Shown: positions 19,503-42,908 of the stretch, piece by piece
How positions within the stretch are numbered: position 1 is the first letter of the stretch
How the letters are laid out: each line of letters opens with the position of its first letter
Assembly (NCBI RefSeq): GCF_027812955.1
Contig: NZ_JAPYZV010000014.1
Location: forward strand, 1 to 64,000
Length of the DNA stretch: 64,000 nt
From: Pedococcus sp. 5OH_020
GTDB taxonomy: Bacteria; Actinomycetota; Actinomycetes; Actinomycetales; Dermatophilaceae
Direction: 5' to 3'
Program-made: the position numbers and the translations under genes
Notes under the pieces: model-generated
What the model was told of the DNA's origin: nothing
What the model saw: only the letters and a program-made list of their open reading frames with translations
Databases searched by the model: none

Positions 19503-20708
19503 TCAACGAATTTGGGCGTACCACACGGCGTCGCCGCTGGCAGAGCTGCAGCTGGCGAACAGGGTCGACCCGGTAACGACCACCTGGCGGACTGCAGCAT
19601 GATCGGGTGCTTCGATCCAGGACCAACGCCCCTGCCCATCACGAACGACGATGCCCCTGCCGGGAAGCGCCAGATACACGCGATGGTTGCGGACCGAGGG
19701 CGGGGCCGTGGTGGCGGTGGTTGGGAAAGGCAGCCCAACCCGGCTTGCGCTCCCGTTCTGCAACCGCCAGAGGCCGAGCACTTGGCCGTCCAGGCCTGTG
19801 ACCCAGCATTCCGAGCCCTCGCACGTGGCAGCGCCTGCGGAGGCGGAGGAGTGGCTCGCTGGCAGGGTCCACGTCGTCCAGCCGGCACCGTGCGACTGCC
19901 ACACCTCGGCAGTCTGACGCACTTCGGCCTCGTCGAGGTGGACCGAGGAACCTAGGAGCAGGACCCCGGACTGGCTCGCGGCCGCGCCGGCGACCTGCGA
20001 CTGGGTGCCGCTCGTACTCTCCAGGGCCGTTCCCGCCGACGACCTGCGAAGCCATTGCCCGGCTGGCTCCTGGCCCCAGACGGCGATGTCGAGTCGTCCA
20101 CCTGTGCCGTCCCAGGCACCTACGACGACCGGTCGACCGTCGGCGAACGCCACCGCCGACAGCCCTCCGGAATGGGAGCCGCCGAAGGTCTCGGCGGACT
20201 GGGGGAACTCGATGAGCCGGGTCGCGTCGCCGCGCCAGATCGTCCAGCGGGTGATCGAGTGGGCCCCGCCGGCCATCCCGCCGATGGCGACGATGTCCGT
20301 GCCGTGAGTGGCGATAGACCTCCAGCGCGTTCCGGCTGCGTACGTGCTCCTCGCGAGCAGCGGCACCGACACCGTCTCACCGTCGGTTCCCACGTGAACG
20401 ACCTGTGCCTTCGCCTGCCGGTCCACCCCCTGCGCGCCGACGAGGAGCCCGTCCAGGTATGGCGCGATGGTCATCACCCGGACGTTGGGCACCTCCGCGC
20501 GCCTCCAGTCGAGGCGGATGGTGGGCAGCTCCGGCGTCCGATCGTCGTCTCCTGGGCGCCGCGTTGCCAGGAGCGATCCGAGCGCTGCGATGATCATGAC
20601 GACGATCGCTGTCGCCAGCCGTGCCGCCACCACGCGCGCGTCCGCGGTGAGGCGCGGCTTGCCCTGAGAGGGCGACTCAGCGCCGGCACGGGGCGGGCGA
20701 TGGGGCAT
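19503..20708 (-). CDS. membrane-anchored beta-propeller-like hypothetical protein
   Basis: 401 residues with one membrane segment (about 27-47) and a long extracytoplasmic part of repeated short beta-strand units such as HGTDIVAIGGMAGG, DGRPVVVGAWDG and SQSGVLLLGSSV. Such units suggest a propeller of about seven blades. Four Cys in the latter half could form disulfides. No catalytic motif is seen. Cell-surface or exported binding is inference. It converges on the M28 peptidase. Confidence 0.65.
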   Translation of the reverse strand: MPHRPPRAGAESPSQGKPRLTADARVVAARLATAIVVMIIAALGSLLATRRPGDDDRTPELPTIRLDWRRAEVPNVRVMTIAPYLDGLLVGAQGVDRQAKAQVVHVGTDGETVSVPLLARSTYAAGTRWRSIATHGTDIVAIGGMAGGAHSITRWTIWRGDATRLIEFPQSAETFGGSHSGGLSAVAFADGRPVVVGAWDGTGGRLDIAVWGQEPAGQWLRRSSAGTALESTSGTQSQVAGAAASQSGVLLLGSSVHLDEAEVRQTAEVWQSHGAGWTTWTLPASHSSASAGAATCEGSECWVTGLDGQVLGLWRLQNGSASRVGLPFPTTATTAPPSVRNHRVYLALPGRGIVVRDGQGRWSWIEAPDHAAVRQVVVTGSTLFASCSSASGDAVWYAQIR

Positions 20709-21149: not shown

Positions 21150-22388
21150 ATGACCGACGCACAGCCTGCACCGCTCCAGCCTCCCGGTGCCGTCGCGGGC
21201 TCCCTCACCCTGACGGCTCCGCCCGCACCTCAGCCGGTCGCGGCCACGTCAGCACCCAAGATGGCGCCGGCCGTCGACCCGGCTGCCCTGCCCGGTCTCG
21301 ACGCGCGAGTGGACGCCTATCTGCAGTCGCTGCTCACGGCGGCTCCCCGGTCGCCGGAGTTCTCGGCGAAGGCGACCGATGTCCGCACCATGGGGGACGG
21401 CGACATACGGCAGGCAGCCGAGACGTCCAACCGGCTCCTGGCCTCGCCGGTCAAGGCGCTGCAGGAAGGCGGGCTCGCCGAGGGCTCGAAGGTCGGTGCG
21501 ACCCTCATAGAGCTGCGCAGGACCGTCGAGAGCCTCGACCCCAAGGAGGCCGCGGGCGCCCGCAAGCTCCTCGGACTCGTGCCCTTCGGTGACAAGGTCA
21601 CCGACTACTTCCGCAAGTACCAGTCAGCTCAGAGCCATCTCGACGGCATCCTGCACGCGCTGCGGGACGGGCAGGACGAGCTCGGGAAGGACAACGCGGC
21701 CCTCAACCTCGAGAAGCAGCAGCTGTGGGACGCGATGGCCAGGCTCAACCAGTACGTCTACGTCGCCGAGCGGCTCGACGCCCGGTTGGCCGCCGGCATC
21801 GCGGACCTCGAGCCCACCGACCCGGACAAGGCCAAGGCGCTGCGCGACGACGTGCTGTTCTACGTGCGGCAGAAGCACCAGGACCTGCTGACCCAGCTCG
21901 CCGTCTCCATCCAGAACTACCTCGCCATCGACATCGTCATCAAGAACAACATCGAGCTCATCAAGGGCGTGGACCGAGCCTCGACGACGACCGTCTCCGC
22001 GCTGCGCACGGCCGTGATCGTCGCCCAGGCGCTGGGAAACCAGCAGCTCGTCCTCGAGCAGATCTCGGCGCTGAACACGACGACGTCGGGAATGATCGAG
22101 CGCACGAGCGAGATGCTGCGCGACAACTCCGTCCGCATCCAGGAGCAGGCCGCGTCGGCGACGATCGGGCTGCCTCAGCTCCAGGCCGCCTTCCAGAACA
22201 TCTACGCCACCATGGACGCGATCGACACCTTCAAGGTGCAGGCGCTGGACACGATGGCGGCGACCATCGGCACGCTGGAGACCGAGGTCGGGAAGTCGCG
22301 CAAGTACCTGGACCGGGTCGAGCGGCAGGACAACAGGGTGGCGCACGGATCGCTGGACCTCGGCGACTCCGCGCGAGCGGCCCGCTGA
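21150..22388 (+). CDS. telA: TelA-family toxic anion resistance protein
   Basis: 412 residues of the TelA family (KlaA-like; tellurite and other toxic-anion tolerance; biochemical role unknown). The N-terminal 45 residues are a Pro/Ala-rich disordered tail. The rest is almost wholly helical, with the conserved segments RKLLGLVPFGDKVTDYFRKY and LNQYVYVAERLD, and a long stretch of NTTTSGMIERTSEMLRDNS type. It is the first gene of the operon, 27 nt from the XpaC-like gene, its classical partner in other bacteria. Confidence 0.88.
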   Translation: MTDAQPAPLQPPGAVAGSLTLTAPPAPQPVAATSAPKMAPAVDPAALPGLDARVDAYLQSLLTAAPRSPEFSAKATDVRTMGDGDIRQAAETSNRLLASPVKALQEGGLAEGSKVGATLIELRRTVESLDPKEAAGARKLLGLVPFGDKVTDYFRKYQSAQSHLDGILHALRDGQDELGKDNAALNLEKQQLWDAMARLNQYVYVAERLDARLAAGIADLEPTDPDKAKALRDDVLFYVRQKHQDLLTQLAVSIQNYLAIDIVIKNNIELIKGVDRASTTTVSALRTAVIVAQALGNQQLVLEQISALNTTTSGMIERTSEMLRDNSVRIQEQAASATIGLPQLQAAFQNIYATMDAIDTFKVQALDTMAATIGTLETEVGKSRKYLDRVERQDNRVAHGSLDLGDSARAAR

Positions 22389-22415
22389 CGAGCTGCTTCG
22401 GGGGATAGTGAGCAC

Positions 22416-23066
22416 ATGCCCGGTGGAATCTTCGACCGTCTCTTCGGTCGTGGACAGAACGAGGTGCGGCACGAGCAGTTCCTCGTGCCGCCGGTCCCCA
22501 CGAGCGATGACCTGCTCGCCGCCCTGGACAGGGTCGAGGCGATGGTCACGGCAGGTGCCGTGCCCGCCGCCGTCGCCTCGCGGGTGCGGCGCGTCGACGC
22601 CGTCGTGCGCGACACGATTCCGCGACTGTCGAGTCTGGGCCCCGGCAGCGCTCAGGCGTACTCGGTGATGGCCACGGCGACCGACTACCTCCCGGAGGCG
22701 GTGGGCGGCTACCTGCGCCTGCCGCGGCAGTTCGCGGACAGCCGTCCGGTCGATCGCGGCAAGTCCTCGCTGCTGGTGCTTGTCGACCAGCTGGACCTGC
22801 TGGCCGCCACGATGGACAAGGTGTTCGATGCCGTATGCCGCGACGACGCGGCCGCGCTCGTGGCTCACGGGCGGTTCCTCGCGGCGAAGTTCGGTACGGG
22901 CTCCACCGGCGGCGTGCTCGACGTGGGCCCAGCCTCCTCAGCTGCCGTGGCGGCGCAGCCTTCGTCGCCTCCGGTGGACCAGGTGGTCCCCGCCTCGTCC
23001 TCGGTGGACGAGGACACCGGCGACCTCCAACGCCTGCAGCCGCCCGCGGGCCGGGACCCGTCGTGA
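22416..23066 (+). CDS. XpaC-like helical protein, TelA partner
   Basis: 216 residues. A short N-terminal FDRLFGRGQN segment and a helical central region (about 30-165) contain YLPEAVGGYLRLPRQFA and AALVAHGRFLAAKFG. These resemble XpaC proteins, which are encoded beside TelA in Firmicutes. The C-terminal 50 residues are low complexity. The family call rests on pattern and context, so it is moderate. Its stop overlaps the GTG of the AAA+ gene (GTGA). Confidence 0.6.
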   Translation: MPGGIFDRLFGRGQNEVRHEQFLVPPVPTSDDLLAALDRVEAMVTAGAVPAAVASRVRRVDAVVRDTIPRLSSLGPGSAQAYSVMATATDYLPEAVGGYLRLPRQFADSRPVDRGKSSLLVLVDQLDLLAATMDKVFDAVCRDDAAALVAHGRFLAAKFGTGSTGGVLDVGPASSAAVAAQPSSPPVDQVVPASSSVDEDTGDLQRLQPPAGRDPS

Positions 23067-24574
23067 ACGGGGAAACCCCAGGCCTGGAACGACCGGGTCC
23101 CGCGACGAACCCCGGCCTGGCCGCTGCCCTGGACGGTCTCGCGGCGGTGGCGGCGGCGGCCGGCCTCGAGCCTGCGCTCGCCCGTCAGGAGGCGCTGTCC
23201 CTCGCCGCCGCTGTCGCGGAGTCCGCGCCCCGGGCGGCGAACGACTGGGCGCGGGCCTGCGGTGGCGCCAGCACCCGGGACTTCTTCGACGCAGCGAGTC
23301 GCGGTCGTCGGTGGCGTGAGTCACCCACGGACCTCTTGAGCGGCTTGGCTGCCCAAGGCTCCCCGCAGGCCGCTGCCTATGCGCGCGCGCTGGCCGAGGT
23401 CGCCTCGGCCGCCTGCCTCCTGGGCGAGCCGACCATCCGGGTCCTGGGTAACGCCTCGGTGGCCGCCGCCGCGCAGCTCGCGGTCGTCACGTCGGGGATC
23501 GGGTCTGCGACCGGAGGGGACATCCGGGCCGAGAGGACCGACGCGGGCGCGCCCACGGGACCGGCGGACACGCTTGCGCTGGTGGGAGATCCGGGCCCTG
23601 CACCGGCGACGGACGTAGGCGCCGCAGCCCCGCCCTCGCCACCGCAGCGGACGCTCGAGGAGCTGTTGGCCGAGCTCGATGGCCTCATCGGGCTCGGGCA
23701 CGTCAAGCGTGAGATCCACCGGCAGGTCGCCCTCCTTCGCGTCGACAGGCTCCGGGCGGACGCCGGGCTGAGGAGCGCCACCATCACCCGTCACCTCGTC
23801 TTCACGGGCAACCCCGGCACCGGCAAGACGACGGTCGCGCGGCTGGTGGGGGGCATCTACCGGGCGCTCGGCCTGCTGACCCGCGGACAGCTGGTCGAGG
23901 TCGACCGCTCGGAGCTGGTGGCCGGCTACCTGGGGCAGACCGCGACCAAGACCGCCGACGTGGTGGCTTCCGCTGCGGGGGGCGTGCTGTTCATCGACGA
24001 GGCCTACAGCCTCACGGGGGGCCAGGGCGACCAGTACGGCCAGGAGTCGGTGGACACCCTCGTGAAGGAGATGGAGGACCGGCGCGACGACCTCGTGGTC
24101 ATCGTGGCCGGATACCCGGAACCGATGGACAGCTTCATCTCCGCCAACCCCGGTCTGGCGAGCCGCTTCCGGACCACGATCGAGTTCGAGGACTACACCG
24201 ACGAGGAGCTCGTCGCCATCCTGGTGCAGCTGGCTCAGGCCGCGGACTACGAGCTGCTTCCCGAAGCCGTGGACCGGTTCCGGCAGGGCCTCGGTGGCAC
24301 GCCGCGCGGGCGGAGCTTCGGGAACGGCCGGTTCGCACGGAATGCGCTCGAGGCGGCGATCGGCCAGCACGCCTGGCGGCTGCGCGAGGTGAGCGCCCCC
24401 AGCATCGACGAGCTGCGCCGGCTGACGGCCGCGGACTTCGACGACACGGAGTTCGACACAGCGTTCGACGGCACCGAAGGCCACGACACCGATGGCCACG
24501 ACACCGAAGGCCACGGCGCAGCCGTCGACGCCGCGGCTCACGCATCCCGGACCCGAGCAGGAGGTCGGTCGTGA
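23063..24574 (+). CDS. CbxX/CfxQ-type AAA+ ATPase
   Basis: 503 residues. A helical N-terminal region (1-190) is followed by a AAA+ module (about 200-450): GLGHVKREI, Walker A GNPGTGKTT near 250, pore-type YLGQTATKT, Walker B GGVLFIDEAY near 306, sensor 1 in VVIVAGYPEPM, and the Arg finger in GLASRFRTTIEF. This is the family of RuBisCO activase CbbX and ESX EccA. It probably remodels a partner in the operon. The C-terminus has 15-bp tandem repeats (24476-24517) giving GHDTDGHDTEGH, a possible metal-binding tail. Overlaps both neighbours by 4 nt. Confidence 0.85.
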   Translation: MNGETPGLERPGPATNPGLAAALDGLAAVAAAAGLEPALARQEALSLAAAVAESAPRAANDWARACGGASTRDFFDAASRGRRWRESPTDLLSGLAAQGSPQAAAYARALAEVASAACLLGEPTIRVLGNASVAAAAQLAVVTSGIGSATGGDIRAERTDAGAPTGPADTLALVGDPGPAPATDVGAAAPPSPPQRTLEELLAELDGLIGLGHVKREIHRQVALLRVDRLRADAGLRSATITRHLVFTGNPGTGKTTVARLVGGIYRALGLLTRGQLVEVDRSELVAGYLGQTATKTADVVASAAGGVLFIDEAYSLTGGQGDQYGQESVDTLVKEMEDRRDDLVVIVAGYPEPMDSFISANPGLASRFRTTIEFEDYTDEELVAILVQLAQAADYELLPEAVDRFRQGLGGTPRGRSFGNGRFARNALEAAIGQHAWRLREVSAPSIDELRRLTAADFDDTEFDTAFDGTEGHDTDGHDTEGHGAAVDAAAHASRTRAGGRS

Positions 24575-26004
24575 CCAGTCCCACGCCTGCCGCGACGGCG
24601 GAGCCGCTGCCTAGCGGCGCAGGCACGGTGCCGTCGTGGACGCCTCGGCAGCCCACCCTGCCACCGGCTTCTGCGGACACTGGGGCTTCTGCAGGCACTG
24701 GGGCGGGACCCTCGCCATCCTCCTCACCGACACCTCTTCGCGCGTCCCGGGGACGTCTGCATACCGTCTCGTCAGCCGCCCGCGCCGCACTCGCCGGCAC
24801 GCCCGGACGGATGAGGGCGCTGGGCGGCCTCGCGGTCGTGGTGACGCTGGTCTTCGGGCTGGCGGCGGGTCAGGCGTTCCGCGCCGCGGACGGCGCGCTG
24901 GCGCGCGCCGCAGCCAACACCGACCAGCTGGTCCGGATCCAGGCCATCCAGACGCACGTGGTCCAGGCGGACGCCGACGCGACCAATGCCTTCCTGGTCG
25001 GCGGCCTCGAACCGGCCGGCCAGCGGGCCGACTACACCGCTGCCGTCGCCGCGGCCTCCCAGCTCATCGCCGAGGCCGCCCAGAACCAGCCGGCGGACGG
25101 CCGAGCTCTCGGCGCGCTCAACCAGGCCCTGCTCGACTATGCCACGGAGATCGAGCAGGCCCGCGCCAACAACCGCCAGGGCCTGCCCATCGGGGCGCAG
25201 TACCTCAAGGACGCCAGTGCCCACCTGCGCTCGGATGCGGTCCCCCTGCTCAAGAACCTCGTCACCGCCAACACCGCGCGAGTCGGGACCGAGTTCGACA
25301 ATGCGCGGCGTGCCTCGCTCTGGCTCGTGGTGTTCGGTCTGCTGACCCTTCTCGTCCTGGTGCTCTGCCTCGTATGGCTCGCTCGCCGCACCCGGCGCCT
25401 GGTCAACGTGCCCGTGGCCGGCGCCGCCCTGGTGGTGCTGGTCGCCCTGGTCCTGGGCACGGTGGGACTCGCCGGCATCTCCCGCCACGTCGAGGCGACC
25501 CGCAGCGGCGTGTATGCCGCGACGCTCTCCACCGCCAAGGCACGGATCGCCGCCTTCGACGCCAAGTCCAACGAGAGCCTCACCCTCGTGGCACGCGGCT
25601 CCGGCTCCGCGTTCGAGAAGGCCTGGACGTCCTCGGATGCCGCCGTGAGGGCCGAGCTGGCACGGCTGAACGCCAACCCTTCCCCGTCCGGACAGCAAAC
25701 GCTGCCGTGGGCGGGCTACGAGGCGGCGCACCGGAAGATCCGGGCGCTCGACAACGCCGGTGACTGGGACGCGTCGGTCGCGCTGGCCACCGGCACGGGC
25801 AGTGGCTCGGGCAACGCCTCGTTCGCGAGCTTCGACACCGCCTCTGAACGGCAGCTGGCCACCCTCAGCCGGCAGACTGCCTCCGGGCTGCACGAGGCAG
25901 GCGGCTGGCTGCCCTTCGCCGGGGCGCTCGGTGTGCTGGCAGGCCTGCTCGCCGCGGTCCTGTCGTGGTGGGGCGTCTCCCTCCGGCTTGCGGAGTACCG
26001 GTGA
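24571..26004 (+). CDS. glnX: GlnX-like membrane sensor
   Basis: 477 residues with four membrane helices (about 86-106, 250-272, 280-300 and 440-462) bracketing two extracytoplasmic helical domains, like a four-helix-bundle sensor. A 60-residue Pro/Ser/Ala tail faces the cytoplasm. Topology, length, and position directly before a GlnH-like lipoprotein and near pknG match GlnX of mycobacteria and corynebacteria, which relays extracellular amino-acid levels to PknG. GTGA overlaps with both flanking genes. Homology is inferred from topology and synteny. Confidence 0.7.
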   Translation: MTSPTPAATAEPLPSGAGTVPSWTPRQPTLPPASADTGASAGTGAGPSPSSSPTPLRASRGRLHTVSSAARAALAGTPGRMRALGGLAVVVTLVFGLAAGQAFRAADGALARAAANTDQLVRIQAIQTHVVQADADATNAFLVGGLEPAGQRADYTAAVAAASQLIAEAAQNQPADGRALGALNQALLDYATEIEQARANNRQGLPIGAQYLKDASAHLRSDAVPLLKNLVTANTARVGTEFDNARRASLWLVVFGLLTLLVLVLCLVWLARRTRRLVNVPVAGAALVVLVALVLGTVGLAGISRHVEATRSGVYAATLSTAKARIAAFDAKSNESLTLVARGSGSAFEKAWTSSDAAVRAELARLNANPSPSGQQTLPWAGYEAAHRKIRALDNAGDWDASVALATGTGSGSGNASFASFDTASERQLATLSRQTASGLHEAGGWLPFAGALGVLAGLLAAVLSWWGVSLRLAEYR

Positions 26005-27062
26005 CCGCCGGTCGCGTCGCCTCGGCTGTCGCCACAATGGTGGCCGTCGGCCTACTGGCCACGGCGTGCTCGAGCGCGGGGGTGTACAAGCCCACGCCGC
26101 TGCCCGGTTCCGCGACTGCGGTGGCCGCGTCAGGCGGTGGCGCTCCCGCCACGGGTGCCGCCCCGTCCACGGGTGCATCGCCCCAGGGCACCGCTACCCC
26201 CGCCCCTTCGGGGACGGCCGTGGTCACGGCGAACTGCCTCCCGTCGTACGCCCCGCCCGCGGAGCTGCCACCTCCGGGGCAGATGCCGCCGGGCTCCACG
26301 ATGAGCAGGATCCAGAGCCGCGGCCGCCTCGTCGCGGGAGTTTCGGCGGACACGCTCCTGCTCGGGTCCCGCAACCCCATCTCGGGTCGGATCGAGGGCT
26401 TCGACATCGACCTGCTGCATGCCATCTCCCAGGCGATCTTCGGCGACCCGGACAGGCTCGAGCTGAGGGTCATCACCGCGGCCCAGCGACTGCCCGTCCT
26501 TGAGGACGGCAGCGTCGACATCGTGGCCCGCAACATGACGATCACCTGCGCCCGCTGGAAGGACATCGCCTTCTCCAGCGAGTACTACCGCTCCGGTCAG
26601 AAGGTGATGGTCCGCCTGGGGGACACGACGGCCAGCGGCGGACGGATCACCGGCATGCGGGACCTCGCCGGCAAGAAGGTCTGTGCTCCGAACGGCTCGA
26701 CCAGCATGGACGAGCTGCGCACCTTCCCAGGGCTGCAGCCGGTCGGCGCCGACACGCACACCGGGTGTCTCGTGCTGTTCCAGCAGGGGAAGGTCGACGC
26801 GATCACCGGCGACGACACCGTCCTGGCGGGGCTGGCCGCCCAGGACCCCTACGCGCACGTCGTCCAGGCGCCCGCTTTCACGGCCGAGCCGTACGGCCTG
26901 GGCATCGGCAAGGGCAACGTCGACTTCGTGAGGTTCGTCAACGGTGTGCTGGCCGAGCTGCGAGCCGACGGCCGCTGGCAGAAGAGCTACAACCGATGGC
27001 TCGCCGACGCCCTGGGCAAGGCCCCGAACCCCCCGGCCGCCGTCTACGGACGGACCCCATGA
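26001..27062 (+). CDS. glnH: GlnH-like solute-binding lipoprotein
   Basis: 353 residues. The lipobox LLATAC places the acylated Cys near residue 23, followed by a low-complexity linker (25-75). The rest is a family 3 amino-acid-binding domain: LVAGVSADTLLLGSRNP, then GFDIDLLHAI, DIVARNMTITCARWKDIAFSS, and GLGIGKGNVDFVRFVNGVL. In the GlnX-GlnH-PknG pathway GlnH binds aspartate or glutamate outside the membrane. No permease or ATPase gene is nearby, so a sensing role fits better than transport. Starts in a GTGA overlap. Confidence 0.85.
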   Translation: MTAGRVASAVATMVAVGLLATACSSAGVYKPTPLPGSATAVAASGGGAPATGAAPSTGASPQGTATPAPSGTAVVTANCLPSYAPPAELPPPGQMPPGSTMSRIQSRGRLVAGVSADTLLLGSRNPISGRIEGFDIDLLHAISQAIFGDPDRLELRVITAAQRLPVLEDGSVDIVARNMTITCARWKDIAFSSEYYRSGQKVMVRLGDTTASGGRITGMRDLAGKKVCAPNGSTSMDELRTFPGLQPVGADTHTGCLVLFQQGKVDAITGDDTVLAGLAAQDPYAHVVQAPAFTAEPYGLGIGKGNVDFVRFVNGVLAELRADGRWQKSYNRWLADALGKAPNPPAAVYGRTP

Positions 27063-28288
27063 TTGCCGCTCCGACATCGGCGTCCGCTCCGCCCGCTCCC
27101 GGGCGCCTGGGCGTCCCCGTCAGTGCGCAGGACGCCCTGCGCTACCTCGATGCACTCGGGCTCTGGCGGGACCGTCGCAGGTCGGAGCTCGACGCTCTCG
27201 ACGAGGCGGCGCTCGCGGCGACGGACGAGTCCGCGTTCACCGGCGACCTGCTCCTGTCGATGGCTCTATGGAAGGCGGTCGCCGACCGGTACGACCTGCT
27301 CGTCGCGACGTGGGACTCCGGACGGGCGGGGCCCAAGGAGCTGGAGCGGATGTCCACGCTGGTCTGGGGACGGTTGGACACGACGTTCCAGCAGCGCGTC
27401 CAGCCAGCGCCCGCGGCCCAGGCCAGCGCCACACCCGCCGCCACCGGTGGTCTCGCGGTGTCGCTCCCGGAGGCCTGTCGTCTGTCCGACGCGCTCGCCA
27501 CATCCTTGCGAGCGCGGTTGGGCATCGACGCCTCGGAAGCCGACGTGACGGCGCGGCTACGGCAGCTGCGTGCCGGCGCCGAGCGGCTCCGCGACCTGGT
27601 CGACCGCGAGCCGGCTCGCACTCGGCACGCTTCGGCCGAGGTGCTGGTCCGGCTCGACGCCCGGGTCCACGACCTGGCCGCCCGCGTCCAGCGTGGCGCT
27701 GACGTCGGGGGCCTTCTCGGGCCTCTCGAGGAGGCCGTGGCCCGCGCCGAACGGGACCTCATCGTCGCCGCCTCACGGCGTCGCGCCGACGCACGGGACG
27801 AGGCGCGGGCAGTGGCCCTGCGGGCCGAGCTCCAAGCCCGCGGGGCGGCGCTACGGGACCTGGCGGACCGATGCGTGGCACAGGTGGAGCCCGCGCCGCG
27901 CCTGGCCGTCCCGGACGTGGCAGCGCTGGGTGCCGTGCCCACGGAGCCGGAGGCGGTGGACGCCTACCTCGTCAGGCTCGATGCCGTGGCCCGGGCCATG
28001 ACGATGGCTCAGGACGCCTACGCCACGGCGCTGGCCGACCGGCAGTCCCTGCGTGGGGAGCTCGAGGCGTACGCCGCGAAGGCCGCCGTCCTGAGCACTT
28101 CCCCCGGCTTCCCCCCGGCGGCTTCCGGCGACCTGGCCGAGCTCGAGCGGCGGGCCACCGGGGTGCTGGACCACGAGCCGGTCGACCTGCGTCGCGGCCA
28201 GGCCCTCCTCGCGGCATACCGCGCGTATCTCTCGGCGGTCGAGCAGACCCAGCGAGGCAACCAACGCACCCCTGGACGGGCGTCATGA
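27059..28288 (+). CDS. helical hypothetical protein inserted between glnH and pknG
   Basis: 409 residues, almost entirely alpha-helical, rich in Ala, Arg, Leu and Glu/Asp, with several heptad-like stretches (for example about 170-280). No signal, membrane helix or known domain is visible. It overlaps glnH and pknG by ATGA on each side, so it is co-translated with both. It is absent from the three-gene glnX-glnH-pknG order known in mycobacteria. A scaffold or adaptor linking sensor and kinase is a guess from position. Confidence 0.7.
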   Translation: MIAAPTSASAPPAPGRLGVPVSAQDALRYLDALGLWRDRRRSELDALDEAALAATDESAFTGDLLLSMALWKAVADRYDLLVATWDSGRAGPKELERMSTLVWGRLDTTFQQRVQPAPAAQASATPAATGGLAVSLPEACRLSDALATSLRARLGIDASEADVTARLRQLRAGAERLRDLVDREPARTRHASAEVLVRLDARVHDLAARVQRGADVGGLLGPLEEAVARAERDLIVAASRRRADARDEARAVALRAELQARGAALRDLADRCVAQVEPAPRLAVPDVAALGAVPTEPEAVDAYLVRLDAVARAMTMAQDAYATALADRQSLRGELEAYAAKAAVLSTSPGFPPAASGDLAELERRATGVLDHEPVDLRRGQALLAAYRAYLSAVEQTQRGNQRTPGRAS

Positions 28289-30525
28289 GCACCATCGCCT
28301 GCACGCAGCCAGGGTGCACCGGCTCGATCCTCGACGGCTACTGCGACGTCTGCGGCTCACCGCAGGCGACGGCCTCGCCGCCGAACGGGGCTTCGGCCGT
28401 GACGGCCCCCGCGACGGCCCCCGCAGGAGTCTCCCAGACCCCCTCCACGGTGTCCCGCACCTCCGACCGGCTCGCGTCAACGGCCCTTGGCTCAGCGCGG
28501 GCAGGCGTGGGCGGAAGCAAGGTCACCCGCCGGGTCGGCGGGTCGACCAGGCTCCGCGGCGCGCGCCTGGGAGCTGGCCTCACCTCCATCCCCCCGGTGC
28601 CAGCCGTGGATGCCGCCCGCGCGGTCATGGCGGACCCGATGGTGCCCGAGGACCGTCGGAGCTGCCCCTCCTGCGGGTCACCGGTGGGACGGTCGCACGA
28701 CGGTCAACCGGGGCGCACGGAAGGCTTCTGCCCGAAGTGCCGCACTCCCTTCTCCTTCGCTCCCAAGCTCAAGGCCGGTGACGTCGTCGGCGGGCAGTAC
28801 GTCGTCGCGGGAGCCATCGCGCACGGGGGCCTTGGCTGGATCTACGCGGCGCAGGACCGCAACGTCTCAGACCGTTGGGTCGTGCTCAAGGGCCTGCTGA
28901 ACTCCGGCGACCCGGACGCGCTTGCCGCCGCGATCGCGGAGCGGCAGTTCCTGGCACAGGTGGAGCATCCCCTCATCGTCGAGATCTACAACTTCGTGAC
29001 GCACGAGGGCGCCGGCTACATCGTCATGGAGTACGTCGGCGGCACGTCGTTGAAGCAGCTGCTCAAGCAGCGGATGAAAGCCGCAGGCGGCAGGTACGAC
29101 CCCCTGCCGGTGGACCAGGCGATCGCCTTCGTCATCGAGGTCCTGCCGGCGTTCCAGTACCTCCACGACCTCAACCTGGTCTACTGCGACCTCAAGCCGG
29201 ACAACGTCATCCAGGTGGGCGACGCGGTCAAGCTCATCGACCTCGGCGGCGTCCGCCGGCTCGACGACCTGGACTCGGCGATCTACGGGACCGTCGGCTA
29301 CCAGGCCCCGGAGGTGCCGGAGGTCGGCACGTCGGTGGCCTCGGACATCTACACGATCGGGCGGACGCTGACCGTGCTCGCCATGGAGTTCCGCGGGTAC
29401 CAGAGCACCTACGTGGCCTCGCTGCCGCCGGTGGGCGAGACGCCGCTGTTCCAGCGACACGACTCCCTCTACCGCCTGTTGCTCAAGGCCTGTGCGCCCG
29501 ACCCGGCCGACCGGTTCGCCTCCGCCGACGAGCTGCGGGTCCAGCTGCTCGGGGTGCTGCGCGAGGTCGTCGCCCTCGACCGCGGGGGAGCGGCGGAGCA
29601 CTCGACGCGCTCCCTGCTCTTCGAGGCACCCACGGTCTCGGACGACACGCTGGACTGGCAGGATCTGCCGACCCTGCGGCCCGACGACAGCGACCCGCAG
29701 GCCCCATGGCTGCGCACGGTGAGCGTCGAGGACCCCCGGGAGCGGCTCGTGGCCCTGCAGAACGCTCCGTCGGGCAGTGCGGAGGTGCTGCTCGCCCGGG
29801 CCCGAGCAGCCCTGGAGGCCGGCGCGTACCAGCAGGTCGACGAGGCCGGGCAGGCCCTACTCTCCGACGACCCCTGGGACTGGCGGGCCGTCTGGATGGC
29901 CGGTCTGGTGGCCCTTGCCCGAGGCCAGACCTCAGAAGCGCAGAGTGCCTTCAACGCCGTCTACGGCCAGGTCCCCGGAGAGCTGGCACCCAAGCTGGCC
30001 CTGGCCTTCGCGTGCGAGCAGGGCGGCGAGGCCGACGTCGCGGAGTCGCTGTACCTCATCTGTGCCCGCACCGACGCGACCTACATCGCGCCCGCGGCGT
30101 TCGGGCTCGCCCGGATCCGCGCCGCCCGAGGCGACCTCGACGGCGCGGTCCGCGCGCTGGACCTCGTGCCCGCCACCAGCCGGGCGTACACCCCCGCGCG
30201 CCGGCGCCGGGCTACCCTGCTCGCGGAGTCCGATGGCGGCCTGCGGTCGCTCGCCGCGGCGCTGGACAGCCTCGACCAGCTGACCATCGACCCGGTGGAC
30301 CGGTCGCGATTCCGGGTCGACGTGCTGCGGGCGGCCCTGGGCGTCGTCGAGTCGCAGGGAGCGGACCTCAACGTCCAGATCGCCGGTCGCCCGGCTGCCG
30401 AACCGGCGTTGCGCGACGGCCTCGAGTCGGCGTACCGGGACCTCGCCTCGTACGCCACGACCCGCGAGGAGCGCGTCCACCTGGTCGACCAGGCGAACGC
30501 GGTGCGACGGTGGACGCTGCGATGA
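28285..30525 (+). CDS. pknG: serine/threonine protein kinase PknG
   Basis: 746 residues, the length of mycobacterial PknG. An N-terminal zinc ribbon (Cys 6, 11, 20, 23), a low-complexity linker, and a rubredoxin-like pair (SCPSCGSP and FCPKCRTPF) precede the kinase domain (about 168-440). The kinase has an AIAHGGLGWIY loop, catalytic Lys near 200, VYCDLKPDN near 300 and LIDLGG (DLG, as in PknG). A TPR region fills the C-terminal 270 residues. The known family phosphorylates FHA proteins (OdhI/GarA) to control 2-oxoglutarate metabolism. No transmembrane segment, so cytoplasmic. Confidence 0.92.
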   Translation: MSTIACTQPGCTGSILDGYCDVCGSPQATASPPNGASAVTAPATAPAGVSQTPSTVSRTSDRLASTALGSARAGVGGSKVTRRVGGSTRLRGARLGAGLTSIPPVPAVDAARAVMADPMVPEDRRSCPSCGSPVGRSHDGQPGRTEGFCPKCRTPFSFAPKLKAGDVVGGQYVVAGAIAHGGLGWIYAAQDRNVSDRWVVLKGLLNSGDPDALAAAIAERQFLAQVEHPLIVEIYNFVTHEGAGYIVMEYVGGTSLKQLLKQRMKAAGGRYDPLPVDQAIAFVIEVLPAFQYLHDLNLVYCDLKPDNVIQVGDAVKLIDLGGVRRLDDLDSAIYGTVGYQAPEVPEVGTSVASDIYTIGRTLTVLAMEFRGYQSTYVASLPPVGETPLFQRHDSLYRLLLKACAPDPADRFASADELRVQLLGVLREVVALDRGGAAEHSTRSLLFEAPTVSDDTLDWQDLPTLRPDDSDPQAPWLRTVSVEDPRERLVALQNAPSGSAEVLLARARAALEAGAYQQVDEAGQALLSDDPWDWRAVWMAGLVALARGQTSEAQSAFNAVYGQVPGELAPKLALAFACEQGGEADVAESLYLICARTDATYIAPAAFGLARIRAARGDLDGAVRALDLVPATSRAYTPARRRRATLLAESDGGLRSLAAALDSLDQLTIDPVDRSRFRVDVLRAALGVVESQGADLNVQIAGRPAAEPALRDGLESAYRDLASYATTREERVHLVDQANAVRRWTLR

Positions 30526-31697
30526 CCACAGTGGCCTTGACCTGCCCCTCGTGCTCCGGCCCCGTCTCCGCCGGCGACCGGTACTGCGAGGCCTGCGGCG
30601 CCGAGCTGGCGTGCGAGGCACCCTCCGGACCGGCCTCCGCGGCGTCGCCCGTCCTGACTACGGCTCCCCGGGCCGGCTGCCGGGAGTGCGGCGGCGAGGT
30701 CGCACAGGACGGCTACTGCACCCAGTGCGGCGCACGGGCCGTCAGCGCGCGGGACCACTTCAGCGAAGAGCCGGCCCCCTGGGTCGCCGGCGTATGCGAC
30801 CGGGGCATCCGGCACCAGCGCAACGAGGACGCGCTAGCCCTCGACGCGGAGCCTGAGCCGGGCAGTCGTGCCGTCATGGTGGTCTGCGACGGCGTGTCGT
30901 CATCCCAGGACTGCGATGTCGCCAGCCTCGCGGCGGCCCGCACGGCCCGCGACGTGCTGGCCGGCAGCACCCCCCGGGGTGCCGGCACGGTCGCCGGACA
31001 GGTGGCGGCGACCGTTGGAGTCCTCGAGGAGGCGGTCACCGCGGCCAACGAGGCCGTCATCGCCACGACTCCAGCGGGCGCGCCCAACCCGCCGGCGTGC
31101 ACCTTCGTGGGTGCCGTCCTCGACGAGTCGCTGCTCGTCGTGGGGTGGGTGGGGGACAGCCGCGCGTACTGGGTCCCGGACGAAGGGGAGCCGCGGCTGC
31201 TCACCATCGACGACTCGTATGCCGCCGAGCAGGTCGCCCTGGGGGTGCCGCGGGCTGAGGCGGAGGCTGGCCCGCAGGCCCACGCCATCACCCGGTGGCT
31301 GGGGATCGACGCGCCCGACCACGTCCCGCGCACGACCTCCGTGGAGGTGCTCGGTCCGGGCTGGGTGCTCGTCTGCTCGGACGGCCTGTGGAACTACTGC
31401 TCGGAGCCCGGGGACGTCGCGTCGCTGGTCCACGACACGGTCTGGGCCTCGACCGGGGCCGGGCCCCTGGAGCTGGCGAGCGCCCTCGTGGACTGGGCCA
31501 ACCACCAGGGCGGCAGGGACAACATCACCGTGGCCCTCGCGAGAGCCCCTGCCGCGCCACCTCCTCGTGAGGAGCGGGCTGCCGTGGAGGGAACTGCCGC
31601 CGGCGCCCTCGACCCGACGACCGCCCTGCCGACGCTGGAACCCCGGCAGGCGGCATACCGAGAGGAAGGCCCGCCAGATGGCGACGTTCTCAGCTGA
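30522..31697 (+). CDS. PP2C-type protein phosphatase with double zinc ribbon
   Basis: 391 residues. Two zinc ribbons (Cys 8, 11, 22, 25 and Cys 53, 56, 66, 69) precede a PP2C domain (about 85-350) with RNEDA, VVCDGVSSS (metal Asp near 123), GDSRAYW, SDGLWNYC and GGRDNITVA. It should reverse Ser/Thr phosphorylation by PknG or related kinases. The ATG overlaps the pknG stop (ATGA), a writer-eraser pairing. Unlike the membrane PstP phosphatase it lacks a membrane helix. The C-terminal 50 residues are low complexity. Confidence 0.88.
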   Translation: MTTVALTCPSCSGPVSAGDRYCEACGAELACEAPSGPASAASPVLTTAPRAGCRECGGEVAQDGYCTQCGARAVSARDHFSEEPAPWVAGVCDRGIRHQRNEDALALDAEPEPGSRAVMVVCDGVSSSQDCDVASLAAARTARDVLAGSTPRGAGTVAGQVAATVGVLEEAVTAANEAVIATTPAGAPNPPACTFVGAVLDESLLVVGWVGDSRAYWVPDEGEPRLLTIDDSYAAEQVALGVPRAEAEAGPQAHAITRWLGIDAPDHVPRTTSVEVLGPGWVLVCSDGLWNYCSEPGDVASLVHDTVWASTGAGPLELASALVDWANHQGGRDNITVALARAPAAPPPREERAAVEGTAAGALDPTTALPTLEPRQAAYREEGPPDGDVLS

Positions 31698-32955
31698 GGT
31701 CTACCAGAACGAGTTCCTGCCGGACGGCGGGACCGACGTGCATGCCATCGTCACCATCACCTGCTCCGGCGCCGGCGAGGCGGGCAGGTCCGGAGCCGGT
31801 GACGCCGCCGAGGTCGTCATCGTCGACACCTCCGGTTCGATGGGGCGGGAGAAGATCAGGGCTGCGCAGCTGGCGGCAGCGGCCGCGCTCGACCAGGTGC
31901 TCGACGGGGTCTGGTTCGCGGTGATCGCCGGCAGCCACCAGGCGCGGCTCGCCTTCCCCGAGGCGGCTCAGCCCCGGCTGGTCCGGATGGACTCCTATAC
32001 CCGCTCCCAGGCGCAAGCCGCGGTGGCGGGCCTGCGGGCCGACGGCGGCACCGCCATGGGCACGTGGCTGACGCTGGCGACCCGCGTCTTCGCGTCGGTA
32101 CCCGGCCTGGCCCAGAAGCACGCCATCCTGCTCACTGACGGCATCAACCAGCACGAGTCGCCGGAGGACCTCAGCGCCGCCATCGAGTCCGCCCGCGGCC
32201 AGTTCCAGTGCGACTGCCGCGGTGTCGGCTCCGACTGGCAGGTGGCGGAGGTGCGCCGAATCGCCACGACCCTCCTGGGCACCGTCGACCTCATCGCCCG
32301 CCCGGAGGAGATGTCCGCGGACTTCGAACGGATCATGCGGCAGTCGATGGGCCGCGGTGTCGCCGAGGCTGCTCTGCGCGTCTGGGCCCCGCAAGGCGCC
32401 CAGGTCCTCTTCGTCCGCCAGGTGTCACCGACCGTCGAGGACCTGACCACCCGCCGCCAGGAGGTCAACCCGCTCACCGGCGCCTATCCCACCGGTTCTT
32501 GGGGCGACGAGTCGCGCGACTACCACGTCGCCGTCCGGCTCTCGGCGAAGGGCGTCGGCCAGGAGCAGCTGGCGTCCCGGGTGCAGCTCGCCGTGGGGGA
32601 CGAGGTGGTGGCGCAGGGGCTCGTGAAGGCGCTGTGGTCCAACGACGACACCCTCACCACCCGGATCGACCCTGCGGTCGCCCACTACACCGGGCAGGCC
32701 GAGCTCGCCGAGGCGATCCAGGACGGCCTGGCGGCGAAGGCCTCCGGGGACGCGGACGTCGCCACCGCCAAGCTGGGCCGTGCGGTGCAGCTCGCTGCCG
32801 CCACAGGCAACGACGAGGCGACCGCCCGGCTGAGGAAGATCGTCGAGATCGACGATGCCGGCACCGGAACCGTGCGGTTGCGTCGCGGAGTGAACAAGCT
32901 GGACGAGATGGCGCTGGACACCGCGTCGACCAAGACCACGAGGGTCAAGAAGTGA
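31678..32955 (+). CDS. VWA-domain protein
   Basis: 425 residues. A VWA domain (about 45-215) has a complete MIDAS: DTSGS at 50-54, the Thr in GGTAMGTW and the Asp in LLTDG, so it should bind Mg2+ and a protein ligand. A beta-rich domain (220-350) and a short helical region follow. No signal peptide, so intracellular. AGAGGAAGG lies upstream of the ATG, which overlaps the PP2C gene by 20 nt. VWA proteins often pair with AAA+ ATPases (MoxR-type logic), and one is encoded in this operon. Confidence 0.82.
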   Translation: MATFSAEVYQNEFLPDGGTDVHAIVTITCSGAGEAGRSGAGDAAEVVIVDTSGSMGREKIRAAQLAAAAALDQVLDGVWFAVIAGSHQARLAFPEAAQPRLVRMDSYTRSQAQAAVAGLRADGGTAMGTWLTLATRVFASVPGLAQKHAILLTDGINQHESPEDLSAAIESARGQFQCDCRGVGSDWQVAEVRRIATTLLGTVDLIARPEEMSADFERIMRQSMGRGVAEAALRVWAPQGAQVLFVRQVSPTVEDLTTRRQEVNPLTGAYPTGSWGDESRDYHVAVRLSAKGVGQEQLASRVQLAVGDEVVAQGLVKALWSNDDTLTTRIDPAVAHYTGQAELAEAIQDGLAAKASGDADVATAKLGRAVQLAAATGNDEATARLRKIVEIDDAGTGTVRLRRGVNKLDEMALDTASTKTTRVKK

Positions 32956-33809
32956 GCACTGCCACGTGCCCCAACGGCCACGTGTCGGCCTCCACGGACT
33001 ACTGCGACACGTGCGGCGCTCCGATCGCGGCCGGGCAGGTCGGGGCGACCGGGGCCGCCGGGGCCGCGGCCCAGCCGTCCCCGGGGGAGCCGGGCCGGTC
33101 GAGCGCGGCCCCCACCGCACCCCCGGCGGCGGGGGCGGCCTCCACGCAGGCCTGTCCCAGCTGCGGCGCCGAGAACGACGCGGCGGCACTGTTCTGCGAG
33201 GCCTGCGGCTACGACTTCACGACGGGCACGATGCCACGCTCAAGCGGGGCGACCAGCGAGGCGAGCACCGAGGCGCCCGATGGCGCGGCCACCGGAGTGG
33301 CCGGCGCGGCCGGGGAGGCGTCCCCGGCCCAGGCCGTCGCCGGTTCGACGCTCGACCTGGGCACGGCGGCCGAGCAGCCGTCGGTGGCGCCCCCCATCGG
33401 GCTCACCTGGGTCGCCGAGGTATGGGTCGACCCGGACTGGTACGCCTCCCAGGAGAGCGAGGACCCGTGTCCGTCGCCGGGGCTTCCCGTCGTCGTGCCG
33501 CTTCGGGTCCAGAGCGTGCTCATCGGGCGGCCCTCCTCGAGCCGCAACATCCATCCGGAGATCGACTGCACGGGCGACCCCGGCGTCAGCCGCCGGCAGG
33601 CCCAGCTGACCACGGACGGCCAGCGGTGGTGGGTCGAGGACCTGCAGTCCTCGAACGGCACCTACGTCGGCCCGGCGAGCGGCCCGCTGCCCACCCAGGC
33701 AGTCCCGCCCGGCCAACGGCGCGAGCTCGCGGCGGATGACCGCGTCTACCTCGGTGCCTGGACGAGGCTCGTGGTCCGCCGGGCCACTCCGGAGGAGCAG
33801 CACGCCTGA
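32952..33809 (+). CDS. FHA-domain protein with zinc ribbons
   Basis: 285 residues. Two N-terminal Cys clusters (CPNGHVSASTDYCDTCG and CPSCGAENDAAALFCEACG) and an Ala/Gly/Ser linker lead to an FHA domain (about 170-275). The FHA core GRPSSSRNIHPEIDC, SRRQAQL and SSNGTYV holds the phosphothreonine-binding Arg, Ser and Asn. It is the likely phospho-reader of the operon. The ETTS phosphorylation motif of OdhI/GarA is absent, so it is not that PknG substrate itself. It starts in a GTGA overlap and ends the operon. Confidence 0.87.
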   Translation: MSTATCPNGHVSASTDYCDTCGAPIAAGQVGATGAAGAAAQPSPGEPGRSSAAPTAPPAAGAASTQACPSCGAENDAAALFCEACGYDFTTGTMPRSSGATSEASTEAPDGAATGVAGAAGEASPAQAVAGSTLDLGTAAEQPSVAPPIGLTWVAEVWVDPDWYASQESEDPCPSPGLPVVVPLRVQSVLIGRPSSSRNIHPEIDCTGDPGVSRRQAQLTTDGQRWWVEDLQSSNGTYVGPASGPLPTQAVPPGQRRELAADDRVYLGAWTRLVVRRATPEEQHA

Positions 33810-33979: not shown

Positions 33980-35272
33980 TCAGACATCGCAGCTCGCGGC
34001 GGCTGCCCGGCTCGCGAAGACCGACCTCTCGGCCTCACTGCGCGTCAGGCCGGCCGCCTGCTGGAACGCCGCCGCCGCCTCGGCTCGGCGGCCGGCGCGT
34101 TGCAGCAGGTCGCCGCGCACCGAGTGAAGGTGGGGATAGTCGGACAGTCTGCCAGCGGCCAGTACGGCATCGACGACTGCCAGCCCGGCTTCCGGTCCCC
34201 TCGAGAATCCTACGGCGACAGCGCGGTTGACCTCCACGACGGGTGAGGGCCAGATGGTCGCGAGCAGGGCGTAGAGGTCGGAGATGCGGGCCCAGTCCGT
34301 GTCCTCGGGGCGAAGGGCGCGGGCGTAGCAGGCGGCGACAGCGGCCTGCACGGCGTACGGGCCGAGAGGACCGCCGGTCTGCTCGGCACGCGAGAGCGAG
34401 GCCAGTCCCCGACGGACGAGTAGCCGGTCCCAGCGTCGACGGTCCTGATCGGGCAGCAGCACCGGTTCACCACCTGGGCTGACACGGGCCGCGAGGCGCG
34501 ATGCCTGCAGTTCCCTCAGGGCCAGCAGTCCGTGGACCTCGGACTCGTCCGGCAGCAGGGTGGCGAGCACGCGACCCAAGCGCATCGCCTCCTGGCACAG
34601 TGCGGGCCGCACCCAGTCGTCGCCGGACGTCGCGGCATACCCCTCGTTGAAGATCAGGTAGACGACCTCGAGGACCGCTCCCAGACGTGTGGCCAGCTCC
34701 TCACGCGGCGGGAGTTCGAACCGGACCTGCCTCTGGCTCAACGTCCTCTTGGCGCGGACGATCCGCTGCGCCATCGTCGGCTCCGGGACGAGGAAGGCAC
34801 GGGCGAGCTCGTCGGTCGAGAGCCCGCCGAGGCAGCGAAGGGTCAGGGCGACACGGGACTCAAGCGACAGGATCGGGTGGCAGGCGGTGAGGACCAGACG
34901 CAGCAGGTCGTCACCGACATGGTCGTCCATGGCGTCGACCCGCACATCGGCGTCCACGGCCGGCGCGTCGGATGTCAGGTCAGCCGCGATGACGGCGATC
35001 CGACGGTCGTGCGTGGCGGCGCGGCGATGGGCGTCGATGGCACGTCGCTTCGCCGTCGTCATGAGCCAGCCGCCCGGATTGGGTGGGATGCCGGTCGACG
35101 GCCACTGTTGGAGGGCTGCGACCAGCGCCTCCTGGGCGACGTCCTCCGCGACCCCCACGTCACCGGTGGCCCGCGCCAGGCCCGCAATGAGCCGGCTCGA
35201 CTCAATGCGCCAGACCGCCTCGACCGCACGCCTGGCAGCCGTAGTCCGTTCGTCCAACCCCTCATCGGTCAC
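33980..35272 (-). CDS. ECF42-type RNA polymerase sigma factor with C-terminal TPR-like domain
   Basis: 430 residues, twice the usual ECF length. Sigma region 2 (about 20-90, with DVAEDVAQEALVAALQQWP-like sequence) and region 4 (about 130-190, LTLRCLGGLSTDELARAFLVPEPTMAQRIVRAKRTL) are followed by about 240 residues with DUF6596/TPR-like helices (VVYLIFNEGYAAT, LLLPDQDRRRWD). This is the ECF42 architecture, in which the C-terminal extension replaces an anti-sigma factor. It is co-directional with and directly downstream of the DGPF-domain gene, the hallmark ECF42 partner. Confidence 0.88.
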   Translation of the reverse strand: MTDEGLDERTTAARRAVEAVWRIESSRLIAGLARATGDVGVAEDVAQEALVAALQQWPSTGIPPNPGGWLMTTAKRRAIDAHRRAATHDRRIAVIAADLTSDAPAVDADVRVDAMDDHVGDDLLRLVLTACHPILSLESRVALTLRCLGGLSTDELARAFLVPEPTMAQRIVRAKRTLSQRQVRFELPPREELATRLGAVLEVVYLIFNEGYAATSGDDWVRPALCQEAMRLGRVLATLLPDESEVHGLLALRELQASRLAARVSPGGEPVLLPDQDRRRWDRLLVRRGLASLSRAEQTGGPLGPYAVQAAVAACYARALRPEDTDWARISDLYALLATIWPSPVVEVNRAVAVGFSRGPEAGLAVVDAVLAAGRLSDYPHLHSVRGDLLQRAGRRAEAAAAFQQAAGLTRSEAERSVFASRAAAASCDV

Positions 35273-35365
35273 CGGCCGAGCCTACGTCCGCACACGGCTG
35301 CGTCGGAGGGGTTGCGCCACTCCTGGCCCGGTGGCGCGAGCCCGACAAGCAGGTGGCCTCATGGG

Positions 35366-35737: not shown

Positions 35738-35774
35738 GGTGCTCTCCTCTGCTGTGAAACGTGCTGGGTGGGGG

Positions 35775-42814: not shown

Positions 42815-42908
42815 TCTGCCCTCCACGCGACCGATCCGCCTGTCGTGTCGTCTTCATGGAACCTTGTCACGGGCTCGATGGCGAGTCCCTGACGAGGCCG
42901 GGTTCGGG

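Follow-up and report, generated by a model that had tools for sequence, protein, structure and literature searches.

Ten adjacent genes in the genome of the actinobacterium Pedococcus sp. 5OH_020 very probably form one functional unit organized around the protein kinase PknG. These genes lie at 21150-33809 on the forward strand of the 64,000 nt stretch analyzed here (contig NZ_JAPYZV010000014.1, positions 1 to 64,000; hereafter the window). In this operon, homologues of the known GlnX, GlnH and PknG proteins are accompanied by seven more gene products. We lean slightly towards interpreting the set as an extended PknG module, in which a membrane-gated kinase, phosphatase and phospho-reader act on an assembly of TelA and a VWA protein. 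Following open reading frame (ORF) and junction calling, the ten genes are as follows:

21150..22388 (+): TelA-family protein of 412 amino acids (aa) without a hydrophobic segment (Pfam TelA PF05816, 312.7 bits, cut-off 30)
22416..23066 (+): gene 2, a small helical protein whose family was not recognized
23063..24574 (+): AAA+ ATPase of the CbbX/SpoVK/EccA clade with an N-terminal region of its own (Pfam AAA)
24571..26004 (+): GlnX, with four hydrophobic segments (NF058618, 303.7 bits, cut-off 250)
26001..27062 (+): GlnH, a solute-binding protein (SBP_bac_3) with a signal segment and an altered side-chain pocket
27059..28288 (+): new all-helical protein of 409 aa with no known family
28285..30525 (+): PknG, with an N-terminal zinc ribbon followed by rubredoxin, kinase and TPR domains
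30522..31697 (+): PP2C phosphatase with two putative N-terminal zinc ribbons (PP2C_2, 49.7 bits)
31678..32955 (+): VWA protein with a full metal ion-dependent adhesion site (MIDAS) and VWA_3_C (Pfam VWA_3 and VWA_3_C)
32952..33809 (+): FHA protein with two putative N-terminal zinc ribbons (FHA, 42.9 bits)

Seven of the junctions are 4 nt ATGA or GTGA overlaps, the PP2C and VWA genes overlap by 20 nt, and the TelA gene is separated from gene 2 by a 27 nt gap. The junction counts, start codons and ten ORFs given in the original prediction of this operon were reproduced exactly. Based on hydropathy, GlnX has four hydrophobic segments, GlnH has one at its N-terminus and the remaining eight products have none.

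Conservation of the operon was assessed in named genomes, from which 591 PknG relatives were confirmed and the best 80 retained, a sample that leans to close relatives; at least seven of these loci (L090, L091, L092, L094, L140, L143 and L146) are shared with the order-level set from which the profiles were built. At 53 of the 80 loci, the sequence extends far enough in both directions from PknG, with over 8.0 kb preceding its open frame and over 4.2 kb following it. All ten families were found in the same order and on the same strand at 46 of these 53, comprising 44 from the main scan and two (L091 and L136) for which the order was settled separately; the two weak members in this group are the AAA+ protein of L137 (48 bits) and TelA of L153 (83 bits). 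At the other seven loci GlnH was not detected and the cytosolic genes were kept. Among the 27 loci short of room, six (L102, L131, L141, L148, L152 and L163) have an interval between the AAA+ and helical protein genes without GlnH. L125 is missing VWA and FHA despite 9,997 nt after PknG, and in L109 the VWA gene is far downstream with no FHA match. The original prediction had named a survey of PknG neighbourhoods as a test of itself, and this survey did not contradict it: genes for TelA, AAA+, VWA and FHA proteins do co-occur with pknG, and the ten families behave as a conserved unit.

The junctions are conserved as well. In counts that include the window operon itself, 4 nt overlaps are common between gene 2 and the AAA+ gene (43/65), AAA+ and GlnX (65/70), GlnX and GlnH (58/60), GlnH and the helical protein (47/60), the helical protein and PknG (72/77), PknG and PP2C (70/77), and VWA and FHA (49/68). 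They are rare between TelA and gene 2 (5/63) and between PP2C and VWA (6/71), the same two junctions that are without them in the window. These recurrent overlaps suggest translational coupling. The earlier proposal that the ten products should be made stoichiometrically goes further than this, as equal amounts do not follow from coupling.

At the level of the order, PknG_TPR scored over its cut-off in 24 of 198 genomes. Co-occurrence with PknG was judged by Fisher tests, in which relatedness was ignored. The helical family was identified in 22 of the 24 PknG-positive genomes and none of the 174 PknG-negative genomes, and VWA_3_C in 21/24 and 1/174, respectively, with the lone PknG-negative case being a fragmented genome that carries TelA. 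TelA itself is present in 70 of the 198 genomes, including 22 of the PknG-positive ones. When 24 other PknG loci were fetched from 23 genomes (one genome contributing two loci), 17 contained all ten genes and four more (L059, L066, L074 and L075) were cut by contig ends. PknG is patchy even among close relatives: no match was found in the three other sampled members of the genus, or in nine of ten sampled family members outside the genus (the exception being G438). In a PknG tree, the window sequence groups with an Ornithinibacter-labelled and a Marmoricola-labelled metagenome-assembled genome (MAG) (100*). Rows labelled Intrasporangiaceae are scattered over several parts of this tree, a placement that fits transfer of the operon.

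A broader survey covered the class, where PknG_TPR matches (E-value ≤ 1e-15) occur in 140 of 394 genomes. Forty loci were chosen non-randomly across families and considered together with 19 earlier loci, using a wider profile set built also from Streptomyces-type loci. PknG, PP2C, VWA and FHA genes share one strand at 28 of the 40 loci, and all ten families are present at six (five from family f8 and one from f94). In the Streptomyces-type family f5, the gene order at the 11 main loci is GlnX-GlnH-helical-PknG-PP2C-VWA-FHA. In f100, 10 of 15 loci are arranged PknG-PP2C-VWA-FHA-GlnX-GlnH (with a helical match in six of these 10), and in f101, six of 13 are arranged GlnX-GlnH-PknG-PP2C-VWA-FHA (with a helical match in five of these six); the remaining f101 loci are shorter, are split or run into a contig end. 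Both f120 loci have GlnX-GlnH-PknG, as do four of six loci of the mycobacterial-type family f6, in which the other two have PknG alone. Outside of the class, L042 carries helical-PknG-PP2C-VWA-FHA with GlnX-GlnH on the other strand. From these arrangements, the general core is helical-PknG-PP2C-VWA-FHA with GlnX-GlnH, accompanied by a TelA-gene 2-AAA+ block in part of the class. The original prediction placed this operon beyond the three-gene pathway of mycobacteria; this is correct for the core, while the TelA-gene 2-AAA+ part of the claim applies to the minority of class-level loci that have all ten families. By comparison, the mycobacterial operon with its three genes would appear to be a reduced version of this larger system. 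Second PknG paralogues were also observed in f5 genomes, with an adjoining VWA gene at three of four loci (L044-L046; 200-214 bits with the first profile).

Pairwise distances were compared with those of PknG over 50 complete sets, using operon genes only. The correlations are highest for the helical protein (0.94) and the VWA protein (0.93), fall between 0.81 and 0.89 for PP2C, FHA, AAA+, GlnX and gene 2, and are lower for GlnH (0.66) and TelA (0.58).

Several observations weigh against an extended PknG module acting on TelA. Three of the 24 order-level loci are shorter (L068, GlnX-GlnH-PknG-FHA; L073, GlnX-GlnH-PknG-PP2C-FHA; and L077, GlnX-GlnH-PknG), as are 12 of the 40 class-level loci, some of which are cut by contig ends. 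TelA, gene 2 and AAA+ had no match in approximately 20 kb around the 11 main f5 loci. TelA has the distances least correlated with PknG and is found in 48 of 174 PknG-free genomes, so it may have other partners. Only a single open frame (in L116) joins two of the families at over 60 bits, these being PknG and PP2C. Finally, a homologue of GarA/OdhI, the classical target of PknG, is present in all 24 PknG-positive genomes of the order.

One alternative is that two separate units were joined by chance or regulation: a nutrient sensor (GlnX-GlnH-PknG plus the core) and a TelA-gene 2-AAA+ envelope-stress unit, sharing only a promoter. The missing front block in Streptomyces-type loci, the rarity of the TelA-gene 2 overlap and the low TelA correlation all agree with such a history. 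Against it stand the prevalent AAA+-GlnX overlap and an order kept over many families. In addition, a Sphaerotilus plasmid (L172:5722-10438) encodes a solute-binding-like protein (identified by eye), TelA, a VWA protein and a gene 2 homologue (E-value: 2e-23) without PknG, and in Nonomuraea (L171) a gene 2 homologue (E-value: 2e-25) lies approximately 1.6 kb after TelA. TelA, gene 2 and VWA can thus form a PknG-free set, the strongest clue that TelA and gene 2 are what the VWA protein targets. We consider the joining of two units by chance or regulation to be unlikely. In a genome of the order, VWA-like (by eye), XpaC-like (PF10112) and solute-binding-like (by eye) proteins were observed just upstream of a TelA gene (L169:12-3260).

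The GarA/OdhI homologue leads to a second alternative, in which PknG serves only the known GarA/OdhI pathway for control of 2-oxoglutarate dehydrogenase and the other operon genes are accessory regulators or hitchhikers. A homologue is encoded elsewhere in the Pedococcus genome (183 bits, cut-off 200) and has a Thr-Thr (TT) pair in its N-terminus. Across the order, matches at E-value ≤ 1e-40 were found in 167 of 198 genomes, with none over the cut-off. If any TT in the approximately 60 residues before the FHA core is accepted (a loose count), the pair is present in 20 of 20 homologues fetched from the 23 other PknG-positive genomes, consistent with this alternative. The homologue is also found where PknG is lacking (143 of 174 PknG-free genomes), and 16 of the 18 readable sequences among 20 hand-picked ones contain a TT pair. 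As a marker of PknG action, the TT motif was therefore rejected as uninformative. Because homologue and TT pair both occur without PknG, the presence of GarA is, by these matches, independent of the operon. Hitchhiking also leaves the 46 collinear sets and the conserved junctions unexplained. A role restricted to GarA is, in our estimation, unlikely.

PknG matches the PknG_TPR (192.7 bits), Pkinase (96.7 bits) and PknG_rubred (87.8 bits) models, all over cut-off, and has a solved relative (2pzi, E-value: 4e-135); its lack of a hydrophobic segment indicates a soluble protein. The active-site residues K202, D302, K304, N307 and D319 are kept in 80/80 relatives. PknG also has an additional N-terminal element:

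28300..28353 (+): C-x4-C-x8-C-x2-C putative zinc ribbon of PknG, with all four cysteines in 78/80 relatives

The PP2C active-site residues are kept in 73-74 of 74 relatives (the Stp1-type model gives 104 bits, below its cut-off of 230), and the cysteines of its putative zinc ribbons in 65/74 (first ribbon) and 72-74/74 (second ribbon). In the FHA protein, the phosphothreonine-binding G-R and S are conserved in 65/65 relatives and N-G in 64/65, while three putative zinc-ribbon cysteines of the first ribbon are kept in 58/65 and four of the second in 61/65. The MIDAS residues D-S-S-T-D of the VWA protein are kept in 69/69 relatives, and its solved relative is 4fx5 (E-value: 1e-117). Because these catalytic and binding residues are retained in relatives, the writer, eraser and reader look functional. 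A phospho-cycle operating within the unit is somewhat more likely than not. In one MAG (L116:3-3098), PknG and PP2C were observed in a single open frame, which may reflect either true gene fusion or an indel in the assembly and is unconfirmed.

The combination of kinase, phosphatase and VWA protein has precedents. In the available portions of one report, the TerY-P triad is described as a VWA protein, a PP2C phosphatase and a Ser/Thr kinase with a C-terminal zinc ribbon (PMC11090510). The Pedococcus operon resembles this triad in having adjacent VWA, PP2C and kinase genes, zinc ribbons and a proposed phosphorylation switch. In contrast to the TerY-P kinase, PknG has its cysteine clusters at the N-terminus and a TPR domain at the C-terminus; the VWA protein carries VWA_3_C, and FHA, GlnX and GlnH are added. 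The module is most likely analogous to TerY-P triads rather than a member of that group. Actinobacterial kinase-PP2C-VWA genes also adjoin GAP1-N2 GTPase systems, where, in the text accessible to us, an active and often zinc-ribboned kinase is next to PP2C and a stand-alone VWA protein (PMC7159879). The kinase here differs in being PknG, and no GTPase was recognized in the unit with Pfam or NCBIfam models, GAP1 itself not having been compared. TelA with a small neighbour is reminiscent of TelA-XpaC of Listeria and TelA of Ter systems as described in parts of two papers (PMC12791056, PMC7824862), although gene 2 was not detected as XpaC and no TerD or TerC family was recognized in the unit.

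These similarities raise the possibility of an anti-phage or xenobiotic conflict system of the Ter/TerY-P kind, in which the kinase-phosphatase-VWA triad arms TelA and the AAA+ protein against invaders. In the excerpts available, TerY-P triads are said to accompany restriction systems, with TerY-P-like modules reported to be anti-phage (PMC11090510), and TelA is discussed as a sub-membrane Ter component (PMC7824862); the patchy spread of PknG over the order is also in keeping with such a role. Conversely, PADLOC matches were restricted to the kinase and AAA+ models, no nuclease or toxic effector family was recognized in the unit in Pfam and NCBIfam scans, the kinase architecture is unlike that of TerY-P, and a solute-binding sensor is usually present. 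We regard a conflict function as quite unlikely.

The consulted sections of three papers describe the three-gene GlnX-GlnH-PknG pathway of mycobacteria and corynebacteria, call the operon widely conserved and make no mention of the other seven genes (PMC6069109, PMC9769921, PMC8546545). Compared with these accounts, the homologues here are in the same order, PknG has the rubredoxin, kinase and TPR domains of its M. tuberculosis counterpart, and GlnX likewise has four membrane segments with short cytoplasmic parts. Unlike the mycobacterial operon, the Pedococcus operon contains seven more genes, with the helical protein gene falling between glnH and pknG; it also differs in the extra N-terminal zinc ribbon of PknG, the changed side-chain pocket of GlnH and the lack of GlnH in some relatives.

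The segments of GlnX (aa 81-103, 245-274, 276-307 and 445-467) were assigned by hydropathy. GlnX is the most divergent operon protein (mean p-distance of 0.62), and it scores 106.5 bits against the PknG-activating GlnX equivalog NF041460, below the cut-off of 780. Conservation was examined in 122 aligned sequences scoring over 30, with the most divergent left out, and two conserved features were identified:

25396..25407 (+): R276-N279 in the presumed cytoplasmic loop between segments 2 and 3 (R276 1.00 and N279 0.95 of 122)
25984..25998 (+): C-terminal tail R472-x-x-E475-Y476, with R-x-x-[ED]-[YFW] near the C-terminus in 120/122

The C-terminal columns G468 (0.99), R472 (1.00), E475 (0.95) and Y476 (0.93) are among the best conserved, and the loop and tail together hold six of the 22 most conserved columns of GlnX; extracellular parts are also conserved in places (A197 1.00, Y190 0.98). 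In the accessible text of one report, how GlnX contacts PknG is given as not yet shown (PMC9769921). We propose the loop and C-terminal residues as a candidate dock for PknG, with the tail as the dock being a suggestion we put at slightly below even.

GlnH has an N-terminal segment (aa 5-24), a lipobox-like LATAC (identified by eye) and M. tuberculosis GlnH as its closest solved chains (6h1u/6h20 and 6h2t, E-value: 2e-57). Using the contact residue numbering in the part of PMC6069109 available to us, alignment to M. tuberculosis GlnH showed that the contacts to the ligand alpha-amino and carboxylate groups are retained (S164 corresponds to T180, R169 to R185 and D250 to D271). For the side chain, R147 is kept, T162 is replaced by N178 and W232 by H253, so that the full Asp/Glu set is not present; K161 is replaced by R. 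Among 59 GlnH relatives from the named loci, the W232 position is H in 49, the K161 position is R in 55, and the T162 position is N in 29, A in 17 and T in 11. At 13 GlnH loci of other families, four of mycobacterial type keep W and T or S, Q replaces W in eight, and T162 is T in 12. GlnH itself may be absent: it was undetected beside a divergent GlnX at six Propionibacteriaceae loci with sufficient room, where the eight other genes stay, and in Ornithinimicrobium (L161:5752-8815) the GlnH position is filled by another membrane protein, which has an extended, charged N-terminal portion and follows a barely recognizable GlnX (22 bits), the eight other operon genes again being kept. As GlnH is lost or replaced while the other genes stay, and as its pocket changes, the input end is, judging from these alignments, exchangeable. 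The original prediction had extracellular acidic amino acids as the controlling signal. With two of the three side-chain contacts replaced and GlnH undetected at some loci, this signal is not supported for the present operon, though the retained R147 leaves room for it.

Neither gene 2 nor the helical protein had a match in Pfam (E-value ≤ 0.1) or NCBIfam (E-value ≤ 0.01), and their relatives gave only scattered Pfam matches (E-value ≥ 0.0095). The AlphaFold2 model of gene 2 (62 sequences) is helical, with a predicted local distance difference test (pLDDT) of 78.4, reaching 85-96 in blocks over residues 21-160, and a predicted template modelling score (pTM) of 0.61. That of the helical protein (72 sequences) is all-helical and confident (pLDDT 92.4, pTM 0.68). 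Foldseek searches of the PDB returned nothing below an E-value of 0.5 for either protein (best E-value for the helical protein: 0.59). Helical protein matches outside of the order are weak (28-40 bits, E-values 6e-7 to 1.5e-10, nine loci, first profile); in f100 and f101 they reach 31-70 bits with the wider profile, and gene position aids both sets of assignments. Gene 2 had been labelled XpaC in the original prediction, a label that neither profiles nor hhalign recognize: none of 14 members match PF10112 at E-value ≤ 1, this model gives one match over the 198 genomes and none in the Pedococcus genome, and hhalign to one remote XpaC-like protein gives a probability of 0.2%. The AAA+ protein scores below cut-off with the SpoVK (272 versus 423 bits), EccA (236 versus 467) and CbbX (226 versus 459) equivalog models; its nearest solved chains are CbbX (3syk/3zuh) and EccA1 (9lur), and its Walker residues and R368 are each kept in 69/69 relatives.

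The extended PknG module could operate as follows. GlnX, with GlnH where kept, would sense a small extracellular ligand. In Pedococcus this would be an alpha-amino acid, and recognition of its side chain probably differs from that by mycobacterial GlnH. The conserved loop and R-x-x-E-Y tail of GlnX would pass the signal to PknG, which would phosphorylate itself and operon partners (the VWA, helical or FHA protein). Phosphothreonine would then be read by the FHA protein, the zinc ribbons of PknG, PP2C and FHA may contribute to keeping the set assembled, and PP2C would reset the phospho-state. As an adaptor, the VWA protein would convey this state to the output, which in this lineage would be a membrane TelA-gene 2 assembly remodelled by the CbbX-type AAA+ ATPase; the TelA assembly as output is a tentative proposal that may well prove wrong. 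More speculatively, the ancestral PknG device may have been a phospho-controlled machine of seven to ten genes. GlnX would have served it as a generic input at the membrane, with or without GlnH, and its output would have been the remodelling, driven by ATP, of a sub-membrane assembly of TelA, VWA and gene 2. The three-gene mycobacterial pathway would then be a reduced remnant rewired to GarA; we think this scenario rather unlikely as a whole.

The unit is flanked on both sides by opposite-strand genes, one upstream (19503-20708, 441 nt away) and one downstream (33980-35272) that is sigma-factor-like and convergent with the operon. A consensus scan identified no sigma-70-type promoter or simple terminator, a result of little weight in DNA of approximately 70% G+C. 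Just downstream, on the other strand (33980-35893), a sigma factor with DUF6596 adjoins a YCII-domain protein. Further along the window (40874-42826), a single protein combines HisKA_3, response-receiver and LuxR-type DNA-binding domains.

Searches of the open-licence literature, which omits most subscription papers, found no description of the ten-gene unit; in the same literature, PknG and TelA are mentioned together only in a paper on EssB, and PknG and "toxic anion resistance protein" are not mentioned together. What appears to be new here is the conserved ten-gene arrangement, the three-gene pathway and the kinase-PP2C-VWA triads being already known. The conserved loop and tail residues of GlnX make its contact with PknG directly testable. 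PknG is much studied, and the PP2C phosphatase, FHA reader, VWA adaptor and helical partner of this operon provide a parts list for how it may be wired in several families outside of the mycobacterial type. The widespread but poorly understood TelA also gains a defined signalling context. These results suggest that the well-studied three-gene pathway may represent a pared-down version of a more extensive signalling system in bacteria.

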